DNA of 64,000 bases from assembly GCF_002251855.1 (NCBI RefSeq), contig NZ_NOXW01000019.1, forward strand, positions 310,001-374,000. The letters run 5' to 3'. Position numbers and translations under genes: made by a program. This DNA is from Rhodoferax sp. TH121. GTDB taxonomy: Bacteria > Pseudomonadota > Gammaproteobacteria > Burkholderiales > Burkholderiaceae_C. Positions 11,157-58,818 of the stretch are shown here, in pieces. The stretch's first letter is position 1; each line of letters begins with the position of its first letter. The notes beneath the pieces are model-generated. The model saw only the letters and a list, made by a program, of their open reading frames with translations. It searched no databases and was not told where the DNA came from.

Positions 11157-11462
11157 TTAGTCTTGCGCCTTGGGCACCAAGGTGTAGGCCGGGTGCTGCC
11201 CCGTGAGCAGCAAAAACATGGCGAACATGGGGCCTTGCATGCAGCGCTCGTCGGTGGGGCTTTCCAGCGCCTGCCAGGTGCGGGACTGCAGGCCGCCGCG
11301 GCTGCCGGTTTGCAGCGAATAACCCATCAGCTCCGCTGCCTGGGCCTGGTTCAGCCCGGCCGCCACACGCGCGGCCTTGAGCTGCTCGCCCGTGGGAATG
11401 GGCATGGTGAGCGTGATGGGCGCTGGGAGCGGAACGGGTGTGGTGGCGGTGTCTGGCGTCAT
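11157..11462 (-). CDS. Small XRE-like helix-turn-helix protein
   Basis: 101 residues. A proline-rich start is followed by a helix-turn-helix-like segment, GEQLKAARVAAGLNQAQAAELMGY, and a conserved-looking C-terminal part (RTWQALESPTDERCMQGPMFAMFLLL). Its ATG overlaps the stop of xdhB by four bases, so it is translated from the xdh operon. The maturation factor gene xdhC often occupies this position, but this protein is not XdhC. It could be a regulator of the operon or a repurposed DNA-binding fold. Confidence 0.75.
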   Translation of the reverse strand: MTPDTATTPVPLPAPITLTMPIPTGEQLKAARVAAGLNQAQAAELMGYSLQTGSRGGLQSRTWQALESPTDERCMQGPMFAMFLLLTGQHPAYTLVPKAQD

Positions 11463-13833
11463 GTGCCGGACTGTAACGCGCGCAACACGTTTTCGGCCGT
11501 GGCCGGGGCGGTCAGGCGCACCAGCTTGCCGTCGCCGCGTGCCTGAGCCACCGCGTCACGCAGCGCCTCGTAGACGCTGATGGCCAGCATGAACGGCGGC
11601 TCGCCCACGGCCTTGCTGCCAAACACGTTGTCTTCGCGGTTGGGCTCGGGCCAGAGGTCCACCTTGAAGTGTTCTGGGATGTCGCCTGCAGTGGGAATCT
11701 TGTAGGTGCTGGGGGCGTGGGTACTGAGGTAACCCTTGTCGTTCCAAACCAACTGCTCAGTCGTCAGCCAGCCCATGCCTTGCACAAAGCCGCCTTCGAT
11801 CTGCCCCACGTCAATGGCCGGGTTGATGCTGCGGCCCACGTCGTGCAGGATGTCTACTTTGAGCACCTTGCTCTCGCCGGTCAGCGTGTCAATCACCACC
11901 TCGGTACACGCCGCGCCATACGCAAAGTAGTAGAAGGGGCGGCCAGTCAGCGTGGTCTTGTCGTAGTGGATTTTGGGCGTGCGGTAGAAGCCATCGCTCC
12001 ATAGCTGGATGCGGTTGGCGTAGGCCAGTTTCACCACCTCGTCAAAGCTGCGCGTGGCCACGGGTGAAAACACCTCGCCGCCCTTGAACTTGATGGCACC
12101 GGCGCCGCAGCCGTCCAGCCCGCACACAAACGCGGCCAGGTTGTCGCGCACATGGCGCGCGGCAAACTGGGCGGCGCGGCCGTTCAGGTCGGTGCCCGCG
12201 CTGGCGGCCGTGGCCGATGCGTTAGGCACCTTGCTGGTGTCGCTGGCGGTGCACAGCACGCGCGCAAACGGAATGCCCAGCTCGTCCGCCACGATCTGCG
12301 CCACCTTGGTGTGCAGGCCCTGGCCCATCTCGGTGCCGCCGTGGTTCACCTGCACGCTGCCGTCGGTGTACACATGCACCAGCGCGCCCGCCTGGTTGAA
12401 AAGCGTGGCGGTGAAGCTGATGCCGAACTTGACCGGTGTGATGGCAATGCCGCGCTTGAGCATGGGGCTGGTCGAATTCCATGCCGAAATGGCCTCTACG
12501 CGTCGCCGATACTGCGCGGACAGCTCCAGCTTTGATAGCAAAGGTTGGAGGATGTTGTCCTCCACCTTCATCTGGTAGTGGGTGGTGTCGCGCTTCTGAT
12601 CCGTGCCTGCAATGGCCTCGTCGCTGTAGAGGTTGCGCAGGCGCACGTCCAGCGGGTCCAGCTTCAGGGCGCGGGCAATGTCTCCCATGATGGTCTCAAT
12701 CAGGATGACGCCTTGCGGCCCGCCAAAGCCGCGAAAGGCGGTGTGGCTTTGTGTGTTGGTCTTGCAGCGGTAAGACGTAATGTCTACGTCCTGCAGGTAG
12801 TAGGCGTTGTCGCTGTGGAAGATGGCGCGGTCGGCCACGGGGCCGGACAGGTCGGCGCTGAAGCCGCAGTTCGCCGCCATCTGCAGTTGCAGCGCGGTGA
12901 GGCGGCCCGTGTCGTCAAAGCCCACGGTGTATTCGTAGGCAAAGGGGTGGCGCTTGCCGGTAACCATGAAGTCGTCGTCGCGGTCCATGCGCAGCTTCAC
13001 GGCCTGTTTGGTCTTTACCGCTGCCACGGCGGCCCACACGGCCAGGTGGCCGGCTTGCGTCTCTTTGCCGCCAAAGCCGCCACCCATGCGCCGGCATTCC
13101 ACCTTCACCGCGTGGTTGTCGATACCCAGCGCGTGGCTCACCCAGTGTTGCACTTCGCCGGGGTGCTGGGTGCTGCTGTAAATCCACCACTGGTTTTGCT
13201 CCAGCGGCATGGCGTAGGCAATCTGCCCTTCCAGGTAAAAGTGCTCCTGGCCACCCACCTCCAGCGTGCCGTGCAAGGAATACTGCGCGTTGGCAAGTGC
13301 GGTGGCGGCATCACCCCGGCGCACCGTCACCGGGGGCAGCACAAAACTCTTCGCCTCCAGCGCCTGCTGCACGGTCAGCACCGCAGGCAGGGCTTCGATG
13401 TGGAGCTTGACCTTGCGCGCGGCGTGGCGCGCTTGCATGGCGGTGTGCGCCACCACCACACCCACCACCTGGCCCACAAACTGCACCGTGTCCATGGCAA
13501 ACACGGGCTCGTCGCCCGCAAAGGCGGCCAGCATGGGGTCGCCGGGAATGTCTTCGCTCAGCACCACACTCACCACGCCGGGCATGGCGAGTGCGGCGCT
13601 GGCGTCCACACCCAGCAGCTTGCCGTGCGCCACGTTCGAGAGGATGGGCGCGGCGTGCAGGGTGCCGCGTACCTCGGGCAGGTCGTCGATGTAGTGCACG
13701 GCGCCAGCCACCTGGGCGACGGCGCTCTCGTGGAACTGGTTGACCCCTGCAGCAGGGCCGCGCGGGGTGGGGGCTGCCTCCAGCACGGTGGGCGACAGGC
13801 TGGGCAGGGCGGAAGCGGTGACGGACGCGGCGC

Positions 13834-51861: not shown

Positions 51862-52502
51862 TAGAAACGCCGCTCCAGCACCATCTGGTCGTTGTTACGC
51901 GTCATCTGGAAACGGCTCAAAAAACTGTTGCCCAGCAACACATACGGCATGCTGCCGGGGCTGACCACGGCATCCACGCCACTCACCATCACATCGCCTA
52001 CCCGCACCGTGTTGAGCGTCACGCGCCAGCCCTGGGTCACGCCATTGGCCGTGCTCATTTGGATGGTTTGCCCGTTTTGGTAGTTCAGCCCAATGCGTTT
52101 GGCATCGGCCACACTCAAGGCAATGGTGGTGGCGCCAGTGTCCACCATGAACTGCACCACACGGCCATTGATTTGCCCGTCCGTCAAAAAGTGGCCACCG
52201 GGGCCCGCGGCCAGCACCACGCGGTTGCCGCTGAGCTGCTCACCCGCACCGCTGCCCACGCTGGCCGGGGCATCGCCCACGCGCATGGAGACGCGCTTGC
52301 CACCCATCTCCAGGGTGATCTGCTCGCCCTGAATCGCCACCACCTTGATGCCCTTGTGCACCTCGCCAACCGCTACGGCCTTGGGGAACCCGCCGTCCAC
52401 AATCAGCAGCGCCTTGTTGCCCAGCGTACCGTTGATCGCAACTGATTGCGCCCACACCGGGGCGGCAAACAGCAGGGCAGCAGCCAGGCACAGGGTTTTC
52501 AT
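51861..52502 (-). CDS. Retroviral-type aspartic protease-like exported protein
   Basis: 213 residues with a signal peptide (MKTLCLAAALLFAAPVWAQ). The C-terminal clan-AA fold has the active-site motif FMVDTGATTIALS and the flap-side YVLLGNSFLSRF, as in the TIGR02281 family. Probably a periplasmic protease or peptide-binding homodimer. Coupled by TAATG to the HD-GYP-like gene. Confidence 0.88.
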   Translation of the reverse strand: MKTLCLAAALLFAAPVWAQSVAINGTLGNKALLIVDGGFPKAVAVGEVHKGIKVVAIQGEQITLEMGGKRVSMRVGDAPASVGSGAGEQLSGNRVVLAAGPGGHFLTDGQINGRVVQFMVDTGATTIALSVADAKRIGLNYQNGQTIQMSTANGVTQGWRVTLNTVRVGDVMVSGVDAVVSPGSMPYVLLGNSFLSRFQMTRNNDQMVLERRF

Positions 52503-55385: not shown

Positions 55386-55850
55386 ATGCTGCTCAAGACA
55401 GCCGACGAAAAATCCAAGCGCCTAGCGCTGATGGAAGATCTGCAAAAGTCCACCCTGCTGGACATAGGCCAGAAAGACTGGCTGCGCGACGAACTGCGCC
55501 GCTGCAAGACGGGCATAGAAGGCGAGCGCGCTGCCGCCTTTTACCTGGACGGGCATTACAAAGACGCGCAGAACAACGCGCTGCTGCACGACTTGCGCTT
55601 TGTGGTGGATGGCGAAGTGGCGCATATCGACCACCCGGTCACGGGATGCATCTTGGTAGCACGAGCCTATCCGGCAAAGCCTAGCGAAGCCCCGCAGCCT
55701 GTGGACATCAACACTTTCTTTGAAAAGGCTCTGATCGATACAGTTCAGATCCTGGGCATCCAGATCAATAGCCGATTGATTTCCAAGATGGGCGCCTTCA
55801 GGGTGTTCGCCGCCAATATGGCTGCTGGGGTGGCAGCAGCCTTTGGCTAA
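55386..55850 (+). pseudogene. Truncated NERD-domain gene fused to unrelated tail
   Basis: 154-residue frame from ATG 55386 (GGGGAG upstream). The first ~85 residues match the start of a NERD (nuclease-related) protein: LQKSTLLDIGQKDWLRDEL, GIEGERAAAFYLDGHYKD, LHDLRFVVDGEVAHIDH. In intact homologues the IDH is followed by the rest of the NERD core with its catalytic E-x-K. Here it switches to PVTGCILVARAYPAKPSE and an unrelated tail (DINTFFEKALIDTVQI). The nuclease is therefore broken at about 55635, probably by the event that brought in the island. The chimeric frame is open and may still be translated. Confidence 0.65.
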
Positions 55851-55869
55851 CCGATTTGGAGGACCGTCT

Positions 55870-57111
55870 GTGAGCCTTGCACTAGAGCAAATCAAAGTTA
55901 CCACGTTGGGTGGCACGTTGGCACGCGAAATGGCACGAATAGAAGAAGAGCGCTCATCGTGGCGCAAAGCTTTGATTGACAACGATCTGATCGGAAAACA
56001 GTTGCGAGAGTTGGCGGGCAACTCGGTCTATGCACAGATGCCACAGGACATCAGAACCTTGCAGTCTCCGGCGATGTCCATTGCCAAGCAGTACCAAGAC
56101 CTCTTGGGCCCCACTTCGGCCATTGGGTCTGCCTTTAAAGCTTGGCAGGAGTCTGAGCGTTTGCAGATGGAACATATGCGCAAGATGTTCGACCCGATGG
56201 CCGAAATTCGCATGAGTGTTCTGGGGAGCACAGCCACCCAGCAGCTCATCAAGGAGCTCACGGACGGAAGCTCCATGCGAAACCAGATGCAGGCGATTGT
56301 GGATCAAGCCTTGGGCTTTGGTTCGGTTGCCAAGATGCTTGCACAGCAGGCCGAGGATTCACGGGTACAGAATAAGAAGCTTCTTGAAGGTCTGGGTGTG
56401 AGCAGCATTCAGAGCTACCTTAAAGACTTCGAGCACATCAATAAGCAGTGGACGGTGCCCAACGAAGTGTTGGGAATTGTGGGTTCGTTTAAGGAACTGC
56501 AAGATCAGTTTGGCAAGGTGGCATTGCCCACAATCGATTGGGGCTCCGCAGCCGCTATTGCAAAGGCGCTGGGACCCGAGGGCATCCAACAGCAACTGGC
56601 TTTGCTGGGCATCGAGCCAGATGGCTCCATGCACGAACACGCTGTGAAGCCCGAAAGGGGGCTACTCAGTCGTAAGCAGTCAGATGCATTAGCGATGTTG
56701 AGCTTGCTGCTGGGCATCTTGTTCTTCCTCTACCAAGAGATTTCTAGCCACCAAGACAAGAACAAAACGGAGGCCTTTCAAACGCAGACCACTGCCACCT
56801 TGCAGGTGCAGACGCGGCAGATTCAGAACCTCACGGTCCTGATTGAAAGAGCTTTGGTGCAAGCTGCACAGACTCCAGAAGAGCGCTTCGTGGTGCGTGA
56901 GCGTCCCGCCACTGTGCGATCCAAGCCAGAACATGGATCAGCCGTTGAGGGCATGCTCATGCCCAATGAAGTGGTGCGTGCCATCGACAAGGACGGCAAG
57001 TGGGTGGAGATCGAGTACTACCACTGGCTGCGCGAGGAGTACCGCACCGGGTGGGTCTTGAAGAAGTACTTGCATCGGGTTCCATCAAATTATCAGAATA
57101 TGGTGCCCTAG
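55870..57111 (+). CDS. Membrane-anchored SH3-domain protein of unknown function
   Basis: 413 residues from GTG 55870, preceded by a strong GGAGG. A long helical N-terminal region (about 1-270) rich in Gln, Lys and Glu is followed by one membrane segment (ALAMLSLLLGILFFLYQE, about 275-293), a coiled-coil-like stretch (TEAFQTQTTATLQVQTRQIQN) and a C-terminal bacterial SH3 domain (RFVVRERPATVRSKPEHGS ... YRTGWVLKKYLHR). No family name recognised. It is 21 bases upstream of the DUF262 gene and of the same lower GC, so the two likely work together. Confidence 0.78.
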   Translation: MSLALEQIKVTTLGGTLAREMARIEEERSSWRKALIDNDLIGKQLRELAGNSVYAQMPQDIRTLQSPAMSIAKQYQDLLGPTSAIGSAFKAWQESERLQMEHMRKMFDPMAEIRMSVLGSTATQQLIKELTDGSSMRNQMQAIVDQALGFGSVAKMLAQQAEDSRVQNKKLLEGLGVSSIQSYLKDFEHINKQWTVPNEVLGIVGSFKELQDQFGKVALPTIDWGSAAAIAKALGPEGIQQQLALLGIEPDGSMHEHAVKPERGLLSRKQSDALAMLSLLLGILFFLYQEISSHQDKNKTEAFQTQTTATLQVQTRQIQNLTVLIERALVQAAQTPEERFVVRERPATVRSKPEHGSAVEGMLMPNEVVRAIDKDGKWVEIEYYHWLREEYRTGWVLKKYLHRVPSNYQNMVP

Positions 57112-57132
57112 CCTGACTCAGCGGAGGAAAAG

Positions 57133-58818
57133 ATGAAGATTCAGTGTGTCGAAAAAGATATTCGCCAAGTTTTGGAGTCTGGTACGTATCTCATTCCGCG
57201 TTTTCAGCGCCCGTTTTCTTGGGATGAGGATAACGTTGAAGAGTTCTGGGTAGATAGTACGTCGGACCTCAAAAAGGACTACTTCATCGGGGCGTTCGTC
57301 TCTTACAACCTTTCAAGCTCTTCTTTTGGTCTTGTGGACGGGCAGCAGCGCATCACCACTATCACCATTGCTCTGTGTGCCATTCGAGACAAGTTCAACG
57401 ACTTGGGTTTTGCGGCCCCCGCTAAAGGCGTGCACCGTTTGATTGAAACGCGGGACCTAAACGATCAGGCCCAATTCGTTCTTAAAACCGAGACCTCGTA
57501 CCCCTACCTGCAAGCCAAAATTCAGAGCCTTGAAAAAGAGGAGACGGAGATTGACGTGGGTGAGGAGGAGAAGGCGATCAGTGCAGCATACAAACTCATT
57601 AACACCGTCATCGATCAGGGTGTGAAGGAGGCGACTTCTAAGGTTGATCCTTCAAAAGCGGAGGCTGCGAGCAAAAAATGGTTGGAAAGTGTGCGGGATA
57701 AGCTCTTGGGTCTCAAAGTGATTTCGATCACCCTGGATAACCAAGATGACGCGTATCTGATTTTTGAGACGCTCAATACACGGGGTAAGGACCTCACTGC
57801 CGCAGACCTTGCGAAGAACCATCTGCTGCGGCTGCTCCCTTCAAAAGGCAAGGCCATTGACCGTCCCAAAGACCATTGGGTGGAAATTCAGAGCACTTTG
57901 GAGCAGGCAAGCCGGCCGATTCAAATGGCCACTTTCCTTCATCACTACTGGCTCTCAAAGTACCCCTTCACAACAGAGAAGGAGCTTTTCAAGGCCATTA
58001 AAAATGAGGTTTCGGCCACGAATGTTCGTGTGGTCCTCGATGAGCTCAGGACCGACAGTGATCTTTACCGTGGGATTTTGGAGCCCGAACGGCTCACCCT
58101 ATGGAACAAAGGAAATCGGGATGTCGAAGATTCGCTTCGCTGCATCTCTGATGTCCTGAACATCCAAATCGCAAATCCACTGCTTTTGACGGTACTGCGC
58201 CTGTTCGGTGCCAAGAAGCTCAAAGACGGCCAGGTTCGAGAGATCTTCTGGCTCGTGGAACGCTATCACTACCTTTACACGACGATCAGCAACCTGCCTT
58301 CATCAGGCGGCGTGAGCAAGATGTACGCGGCTCATGCGCGCGCATTGGCGACCGCTGCTGATGCAAATGCTCGCGGTCTGTGCATCAACGAGTTCAAGAA
58401 AAAAATCAAGAGCAAGGTCCCCGCTCGGGACACGTTTATCACGCGGTTTAAGGCGCTCAACTACTTGACGCCAAGGCACAAGGAGGTCATCGGCTATACG
58501 CTGTGGAAGATCTACAAGCATCGAAACCCCGCTGTCGATGTCGATCGCACGGGGCAGTCGCTCGAACACCTTCTTTCACAAAACACTGGTGCTCCTTCCG
58601 TGCACAGCATCGGGAACCTTTTGGGCGTGCCCGTGAAGTACAACGGAGAGGTTTTGGCGGCCAACGACTTTGCGGCCAAGAAGGCGCTACTCAGAAAGCA
58701 CGGCTACATCTTAGAGCCACAGATCGACGCTGCAACGACGTGGGGAACGGCAGAGATAGAGCGTCGAACGAGTGATCTAGCAGAGCTCGCTTATGACCAC
58801 GTTTGGGCTATCGAGTAG
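57133..58818 (+). CDS. DUF262/DUF1524 protein (GmrSD/SspE-like), candidate defence nuclease
   Basis: 561 residues, GGAGG upstream. The N-terminal DUF262 domain shows YLIPRFQRPFSW (20-30), the nucleotide-site motif LVDGQQRITT (DGQQR 69-73) and IFETLNTRGKDLTAADLAKN. The C-terminus resembles DUF1524, a His-Me/HNH-type nuclease: SLEHLLSQN (E478-H479), IGNLLGVPVKYN and FAAKKALL. The family includes GmrSD modified-DNA restriction enzymes and SspE of phosphorothioate defence, so anti-phage action is plausible. The usual H-I-x-P after EH is diverged (EHLLSQ), so nuclease activity needs testing. Partner: the SH3 protein upstream. Confidence 0.85.
   Translation: MKIQCVEKDIRQVLESGTYLIPRFQRPFSWDEDNVEEFWVDSTSDLKKDYFIGAFVSYNLSSSSFGLVDGQQRITTITIALCAIRDKFNDLGFAAPAKGVHRLIETRDLNDQAQFVLKTETSYPYLQAKIQSLEKEETEIDVGEEEKAISAAYKLINTVIDQGVKEATSKVDPSKAEAASKKWLESVRDKLLGLKVISITLDNQDDAYLIFETLNTRGKDLTAADLAKNHLLRLLPSKGKAIDRPKDHWVEIQSTLEQASRPIQMATFLHHYWLSKYPFTTEKELFKAIKNEVSATNVRVVLDELRTDSDLYRGILEPERLTLWNKGNRDVEDSLRCISDVLNIQIANPLLLTVLRLFGAKKLKDGQVREIFWLVERYHYLYTTISNLPSSGGVSKMYAAHARALATAADANARGLCINEFKKKIKSKVPARDTFITRFKALNYLTPRHKEVIGYTLWKIYKHRNPAVDVDRTGQSLEHLLSQNTGAPSVHSIGNLLGVPVKYNGEVLAANDFAAKKALLRKHGYILEPQIDAATTWGTAEIERRTSDLAELAYDHVWAIE

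Follow-up and report, generated by a model that had tools for sequence, protein, structure and literature searches.

A low-GC island of Rhodoferax sp. TH121 with a GmrSD-type nuclease gene and a membrane-anchored SH3b gene: one module or two separable parts

Do two genes that stand side by side in a genomic island form one dedicated defense system, or did they come together from separate sources? This question is raised by positions 55870 to 58818 of a 64,000-nucleotide stretch of Rhodoferax sp. TH121 (contig NZ_NOXW01000019.1; this whole stretch is “the window”), which encode a membrane-anchored protein with an SH3b domain and a DUF262-DUF1524 protein of the GmrSD type. A first-pass annotation of the window had proposed one conserved two-gene module, with the SH3 protein as the sensor and the DUF262 protein as the nuclease. 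This proposal did not survive comparison with other loci: 28 of 30 fetched DUF262 loci were without an SH3 gene, and 14 of 16 SH3 genes that were linked to a recognized system stood next to other systems. The best explanation, with a probability that falls just short of even, is that the island was put together from two parts that can exist apart, a nuclease of the HEC-06/Orf5 kind and a portable, membrane-anchored defense accessory, which may perhaps act as a guard or back-up.

The island and its two genes

The SH3 gene extends as an open frame from a GTG at 55870 to the stop codon at 57111 (413 amino acids [aa]) and the DUF262 gene from an ATG at 57133 to the stop codon at 58818 (561 aa), both on the forward strand, separated by 21 bp and with GGAGG-type ribosome sites ahead of both starts. 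The first possible start in the SH3 frame is a TTG at 55843, and the translation from this position was used for the Pfam run. The GC (guanine plus cytosine) content over the gene pair was 0.50 to 0.56, compared to mostly 0.60 to 0.71 in the surrounding segments, with one further dip near 52500 (0.55). The flanks were compared in 21 genomes of the same genus, including that of the window. The epimerase gene and argG were on one contig in 12 relatives, with the two matches ending at most about 220 bp apart in five of them and a distance of 1.9 to 8.9 kb in the other seven. The filler between both genes in the six wide-gap relatives that were fetched (the filler of G1159 was excluded) consisted of other genes, one of them sensor-kinase-like by eye, and gave no tblastn match to the island proteins. 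Judged by its flanks, the island is an insert. The two genes, their distance, and their low GC content had been recognized correctly in the first pass. A promoter scan yielded none. The 12 terminator-like matches, compared to 4.5 expected, were not used, with several of them located within coding sequence.

The DUF262 protein matched GmrSD_N (PF03235, 1e−35) and GmrSD_C (PF07510, 8e−9), both above the curated cut-offs. Because of the latter match, the DUF1524 tail, which had been called diverged, is a recognized domain. The DGQQR site (residues 69 to 73, positions 57337 to 57351) was invariant in five of five aligned proteins, and so were E478, H479, Q483, and N495; in the window, E478-H479 of the predicted His-Me nuclease (58564 to 58569) are followed by LLSQ. 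The full EHxxP motif, as defined in PMC12707154, was absent from the window protein, which has EHLLS with a serine in place of the proline; the proline was present in two of the five proteins (L049 and L051). Since the proline is absent while the catalytic residues reported as mutated in TgvB were a histidine and an asparagine (PMC11411939), “GmrSD-type” is used here on the basis of the domains, and strict membership is left aside. The PADLOC model HEC-06 matched with 5e−81 over model positions 7 to 555 of 558, and Orf5 matched with 1e−103 over nearly the full length and scored above HEC-06, while the best SspE model reached 1e−14 with a short best stretch. The earlier idea of a defense island with a GmrSD-type nuclease is supported, and the DUF262 gene, given the PADLOC matches, is of a described kind. 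No Ssp genes were recognized by eye among the gene calls of the window.

Single proteins of the HEC-06/GmrSD type, such as Eco94GmrSD and BrxU (HEC-05), and PADLOC Orf5 are like the window protein in having a DUF262 domain with DGQQR and a DUF1524 domain with EH and N, and genes of the window's kind are often without SH3. The differences are the serine in the EHxxP counterpart and an SH3 gene next door in two genomes. TgvAB of V. cholerae also contains a GmrSD-type gene in a two-gene unit, but there each of the two proteins has a DUF262 domain and neither is dispensable, whereas the neighbor in the window is an unrelated membrane SH3 protein that is often absent. For HEC-06 proteins, independent action (PMC11411939) and antiviral activity (PMC12988326) have been reported. 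By analogy, the DUF262 protein most likely works alone, without its SH3 neighbor: the DUF262 domain would most likely bind and hydrolyze nucleotide, and the protein would most likely recognize modified phage DNA, which the predicted His-Me domain would cut.

The most conserved part of the SH3 protein is its SH3b region (residues 339 to 408, positions 56884 to 57093), with a match to SH3_3 (PF08239, 2.5e−7, above the curated cut-off) at residues 348 to 401 of the 413-aa protein, or 357 to 410 when counted from 55843. Mean pairwise identity in 20 sequences was 71% in the SH3 region, 58% in residues 201 to 270, and 37 to 42% in residues 1 to 200. A single membrane span at residues 273 to 291 (56686 to 56742) with a conserved LSRK ahead of it was assigned by hydropathy and flank charges, and no second span above the hydropathy threshold occurred in any of 23 sequences. 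A model of residues 190 to 413 made with 23 sequences had a mean pLDDT (predicted local distance difference test) of 64.6 and was confident only in the SH3 part (about 90); a continuous helix at residues 274 to 334 was in its low-confidence part. Foldseek matches with E ≤ 0.001 included three bacterial SH3 domains, the best being 9ovi (4.3e−4), and cell-wall-binding SH3b domains, such as that of lysostaphin, were lower in the list. This fold search bears on the SH3b domain only, not on the helical part. A profile search of the PDB with the SH3 alignment gave a sole, non-significant match (E = 0.31). In Pfam up to E = 1, only SH3_3 and SH3_4 were found, but neither RmuC nor PrrC/AAA_13-type domains, and there was no PADLOC family up to E = 1 (2023 copy) and no PHROGs family up to 0.01. 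The description of the first gene as encoding a novel-looking, membrane-anchored SH3 protein thus holds. With a ratio of nonsynonymous to synonymous substitution rates (dN/dS) of about 0.13 compared to L055, the SH3 gene is, by this measure, under purifying selection.

Partners of the two genes and assembly of the pair

The DUF262 protein had a match in 74 of the 399 genomes of the family sample. Among the 30 best loci that were fetched (L013 to L042, with flanks of up to about 1.5 kb, some ended by contig ends), the SH3 gene was beside DUF262 in two, namely, the window and L014, a Hydrogenophaga locus that coincides with L062. No SH3 gene was found within 18 kb in L049 and L050, with DUF262 proteins 69% and 68% identical to that of the window, respectively.

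The SH3 protein was rarer. Counting the window each time, matches occurred in 8 of 399 genomes of the family sample (one relative broken and one with the SH3 domain only), 7 of 399 of the order sample, 4 of 369 of the class sample, and 4 of 378 of the phylum sample, numbers that include many partial matches and some genomes that coincide with loci named here; besides the window, the phylum sample contained weak partial matches only. There was one match on plasmids, to the SH3 domain only, and none in the phage collection; the viral contigs gave no match with the single SH3 protein as query and one with the alignment. A scan of named genomes with two peptide patterns from the SH3 region, which copies with other SH3 ends escape, led to 24 loci. 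The near-full-length copies that were studied also number 24: the window, L055 to L072, L074, L075, L076, L079, and L095. The counts exclude the C-terminal part in L073, a fragment that follows HsdR in L077, the isolated SH3 parts of L078 and L092, the broken copy of L048 (G105), and matches that were weak or incomplete in G072 (region L053), G738, G190, G219, G042, G1361, and G1322. L043 to L047, L091, L093, and L094 are repeats of named loci and were counted once. Genes were called with a codon-usage script, which made errors such as antisense calls in L065 and an IetS in L066 that was missed at first.

In 16 of the 24 copies, the SH3 gene was part of an operon-like run of close genes on the same strand with one of six classes of systems, and a core gene was within about 125 bp in 15 of these 16. 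The classes were type I restriction-modification (R-M) with six copies (L057, L059, L060, L061, L074, and L095), BREX (bacteriophage exclusion) with four (L067, L068, L069, and L076), ietAS with two (L066 and L071), DUF262 with two (the window and L062), type III R-M with one (L064), and a McrBC-like system with one (L055). L068 was classed as BREX, although an AlbA-like gene (by eye) is located between SH3 and PglZ. The SH3 gene may even overlap the preceding gene (−8 bp after HsdR in L057 and L059), follow it closely (HsdM in L061 at a distance of 10 bp, IetS in L071 at 4 bp), or be embedded between subunits, such as HsdS and HsdR in L095 and, there with an extra 148-aa gene, in L074. In L069 and L076, it is one of several genes that separate PglX from PglZ. 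All four BREX-linked copies lacked about 30 residues near positions 55 to 90, which are mostly retained elsewhere in alignment A2. Three copies, L056, L058, and L065, had no close same-strand neighbor of at least 150 aa (in L065, only overlapping frames beyond 200 bp); that of L056 adjoins a phage-type integrase. L063 and L075 each had a close same-strand neighbor that was not among the recognized systems, and in L070, an SNase gene is located 172 bp before SH3 with a kinase gene ahead of it. A NACHT gene (PF05729, 3.7e−10, L079:11435-13243) begins 210 bp after SH3 on a contig that also carries phage tail and antirepressor genes, and NACHT genes are a possible further partner class. In L072 (11003 to 13185), a resolvase gene follows SH3 after 66 bp and a SIR2-type gene (PF13289, 1.4e−25; PADLOC PDC-S25, 3.5e−28) after 944 bp, which is possibly a mobile defense cassette.

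On how the window pair arose, evidence comes from a maximum-likelihood tree of 23 of the 24 SH3 proteins (L072, with 100 masked bases, was among the 24 but outside the tree; L075 was in the tree but outside alignment A5). The tree grouped the BREX-linked, the core type I-linked, and the ietAS-linked copies by partner, with L074, L075, and L095 on long branches of unsure placement, and the SH3 protein of the window was the sister of the McrBC-linked one of L055 (100/97). The 16 labeled rows required 6 partner changes, compared to a minimum of 5 for six labels. A clade composed of the window and L062 was rejected by the approximately unbiased (AU) test (P = 0.000167), which presupposes a group chosen in advance of the tree, while this pair was defined by its partner but with the tree already in view. 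Because the SH3 genes are not sisters and the gene order is SH3-DUF262 in the window but DUF262-SH3 in L062, the pairing was probably assembled twice, with a gap of 21 bp in both cases.

A third open reading frame, overlooked in the first pass, is also informative. It is located on the forward strand from 55386 to 55850, 19 bp upstream of the SH3 gene, encodes 154 aa, and was dissected by blastp into a NERD start (codons 1 to 85, to position 55640) fused in frame to a McrC-like tail (the last 68 codons or so, 55641 to 55847). Residues 1 to 85 were 60% identical to a NERD-like protein of L050 (genome G007), the gene of which directly precedes a DUF262 gene. Residues 86 to 153 were 69% identical to residues 366 to 433 of the McrC-like protein of L055, which matches PF10117 (9e−11) and is encoded 10 bp ahead of the SH3 gene there. 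Similarity of the DNA between the window and L055 (79.7%, window positions 55637 to 57092) spans the McrC tail, continues through most of the SH3 gene, and ends there. The dN/dS was 0.32 for the McrC part, a value from 68 codons only, compared to 0.13 for the SH3 gene, and the chimeric frame is probably a relic. Because of the McrC tail upstream and the similarity to L055 that stops near the SH3 end, the simplest reading is that the SH3 gene of the window would have come from a McrBC-type operon and been joined to the NERD start on one side and the DUF262 gene on the other.

The proposal of one dedicated two-gene system with an SH3 sensor and a DUF262 nuclease can draw on the adjacency in two genomes with the same gap of 21 bp and on viral contig L148, where the decayed 3′ end of an SH3 gene remains ahead of a DUF262 gene, in the order of the window. 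The alignment score of this remnant was reached by none of 1,000 shuffles under each of two scorings. The DUF262 gene beside the decayed SH3 gene, however, is intact, 92% identical to that of the window, and with a dN/dS of about 0.06 to it (synonymous sites are saturated in the comparison to L062). Together with the reversed order in L062, the SH3 genes that are not sisters, and the fact that each gene is mostly found without the other, this speaks strongly against a dedicated system, which we regard as very improbable; a conserved SH3-DUF262 module was rejected. The remnant is part of a contig end (L148:1-2479) composed of an SNase-like gene (by eye), the decayed SH3 tail, and the DUF262 gene.

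What the SH3b protein may contribute

As one of two separable parts, the SH3b protein would be a portable accessory of defense systems, mostly DNA-targeting ones. The core sets of type I R-M, BREX, ietAS, type III, and McrBC are not known to include such an SH3 protein. Its single span with the conserved LSRK ahead suggests a topology with the N terminus inside and the C terminus outside. From this we infer a helical N-terminal region that is probably cytoplasmic and turned toward the phage or the enzyme of the partner system, a single passage through the inner membrane, and an SH3b domain that is probably periplasmic and would bind a constant envelope ligand such as peptidoglycan. Concerning trigger and output, the protein would most likely be a back-up that senses infection or failure of the first line of defense and then acts at the membrane. 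Such a role fits because the partners change, three copies are solitary, and some copies are inside R-M loci.

PrrC and ShdA may serve as comparisons for this role. PrrC, which carries an AAA_13-type domain, is the guard of EcoprrI, and its gene is an accessory within a type I R-M locus, as is the SH3 gene that L074 and L095 have between hsdS and hsdR. Unlike the SH3 protein, with no such domain in the Pfam scan, it is a tRNA anticodon nuclease, described as active upon inhibition of the R-M enzyme (PMC12707154). ShdA of Shield is membrane anchored as well and reportedly occurs as an orphan, next to different partners, and in loci resembling DISARM (PMC10270631; DISARM, defense island system associated with restriction-modification) and also in type I R-M (PMC11090510), but it is an RmuC nuclease with other partners and hosts, whereas the SH3 protein ends in SH3b and had no RmuC match. 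A frequent presence of GmrSD homologues within type I R-M loci has likewise been reported (PMC11411939). No recognized description of the SH3 protein was found in open-license papers, most of them covered at listing level. The main text of a 2026 BREX survey (PMC12839542), in a term search, mentions neither SH3 nor transmembrane, and passage searches gave nothing in PMC8565338 and WYL domains only in PMC9122601. The SH3b family and the breadth of its partners are apparently undescribed, while portable defense accessory genes as such are already known.

Several observations weigh against a portable back-up. The topology depends on a weak charge bias (a mean of 2.96 lysine and arginine residues before and 1.96 after the span, 23 rows), and since the SH3 protein showed neither a toxic nor an enzymatic domain, the output of a guard is a guess. 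The AlphaFold2 model of the full-length protein (18 sequences) was poor, with a mean pLDDT of 40.5, and was kept out of the fold search. On the nuclease side, there is the missing proline of the EHxxP motif. The copies in L079 and L072 are not solitary after all, with NACHT and SIR2-type genes close by, which leaves three solitary ones. NACHT and SIR2 systems are not known to cut DNA, which weakens the idea of an accessory restricted to DNA-targeting systems. Few copies of this rare family were available, with L057/L059, L060/L061, and L066/L071 each being near-duplicates of one arrangement, and the defense linkage of 16 of 24 copies is a raw count. Finally, the fidelity of SH3 clades to partner classes would fit a dedicated subunit or a tether equally well.

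Such a tether is the main rival of the back-up. The SH3 protein would keep defense enzymes close to the inner membrane, the site of phage DNA entry, and would have no killing role itself. The anchored SH3b domain is conserved across partners, most of the partner classes act on DNA, some of the genes overlap, and the SH3 subfamilies track the partner class. Moreover, identity in the N-terminal region was above the value predicted from SH3 identity in the 14 same-partner pairs (out of 91 pairs; mean residual of +0.076 versus −0.014), although these pairs are not independent and the only distant same-partner pair, the window and L062, was low (0.42 in the N-terminal region at 0.87 in SH3). Against a tether, neither a protein nor a docking surface is known that all partners have in common, and three copies are without a close partner. 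In our view, a tether is rather unlikely.

Less probable still is an SH3 gene with no direct antiviral part, which recombination simply carries along in defense islands or which tempers how strongly its neighbors are expressed or how toxic they are. The protein has no recognizable effector domain, defense islands do recombine, as illustrated by the NERD-McrC chimera, and a resolvase gene is close to the L072 copy. The tight and partly overlapping positions inside several systems, purifying selection on the gene, and clade-level fidelity to the partner class argue in the other direction, and this explanation appears quite unlikely.

The portable accessory may be taken further, to a general “plug-in” of immunity. 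Its envelope side would read a constant cell-wall signal, for instance, penetration by a phage, and its variable cytoplasmic side would couple this signal to the adjacent system, which may be type I, III, or IV restriction, BREX, ietAS, or perhaps NACHT or SIR2, with the ability to act alone. This extended version is doubtful.

For most accessory genes of restriction and BREX loci, there is as yet no explanation. A family that is found with six or more unrelated systems and combines a constant envelope-type domain with a variable remainder offers a direct way to ask what is common to these systems in an infected cell and whether a shared alarm or anchor exists in bacteria. The change of partners across unrelated antiviral systems points to a helper of general use, or a back-up alarm, in bacterial immunity. 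That the same pair was probably assembled twice from separate parts calls for caution before a new system is named from one adjacent pair.

Further genes at SH3- and DUF262-bearing loci

The genome of Rhodoferax sp. TH121 holds a second, shorter DUF262 match (G000:C20:30877-31137, about 6878 to 7138 in L054) in an open frame of 365 aa with a glnS-like gene (by eye) nearby. A DUF262 gene near a glnS-like gene was also present in L051 and in L052, where the copy is split by a transposase-like gene, and the three cases together suggest a repeated insertion site.

Near the solitary SH3 gene of L058, which is part of an element (L058:9983-14348) that seemingly splits a comM-like gene (by eye), there is a gene for 676 aa without Pfam or PADLOC match. 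The gene 25 bp before SH3 in L063 (8080 to 9945, 621 aa) also had neither a Pfam nor a PADLOC match and may represent a further partner type.

Type I R-M operons with an SH3 gene contained further accessory genes between their subunits, namely, Abi_C (PF14355, L057:6029-6775) and AAA_13 (PF13166, L061:7235-8365). In L057, DarT and a macro-domain gene follow SH3, and L059 looks alike. After SH3 in L071, a gene for 754 aa (11326 to 13590) with a NERD-type PADLOC match (2e−17) has its counterpart in L066:2447-3115 and may be a further member of the ietAS locus.

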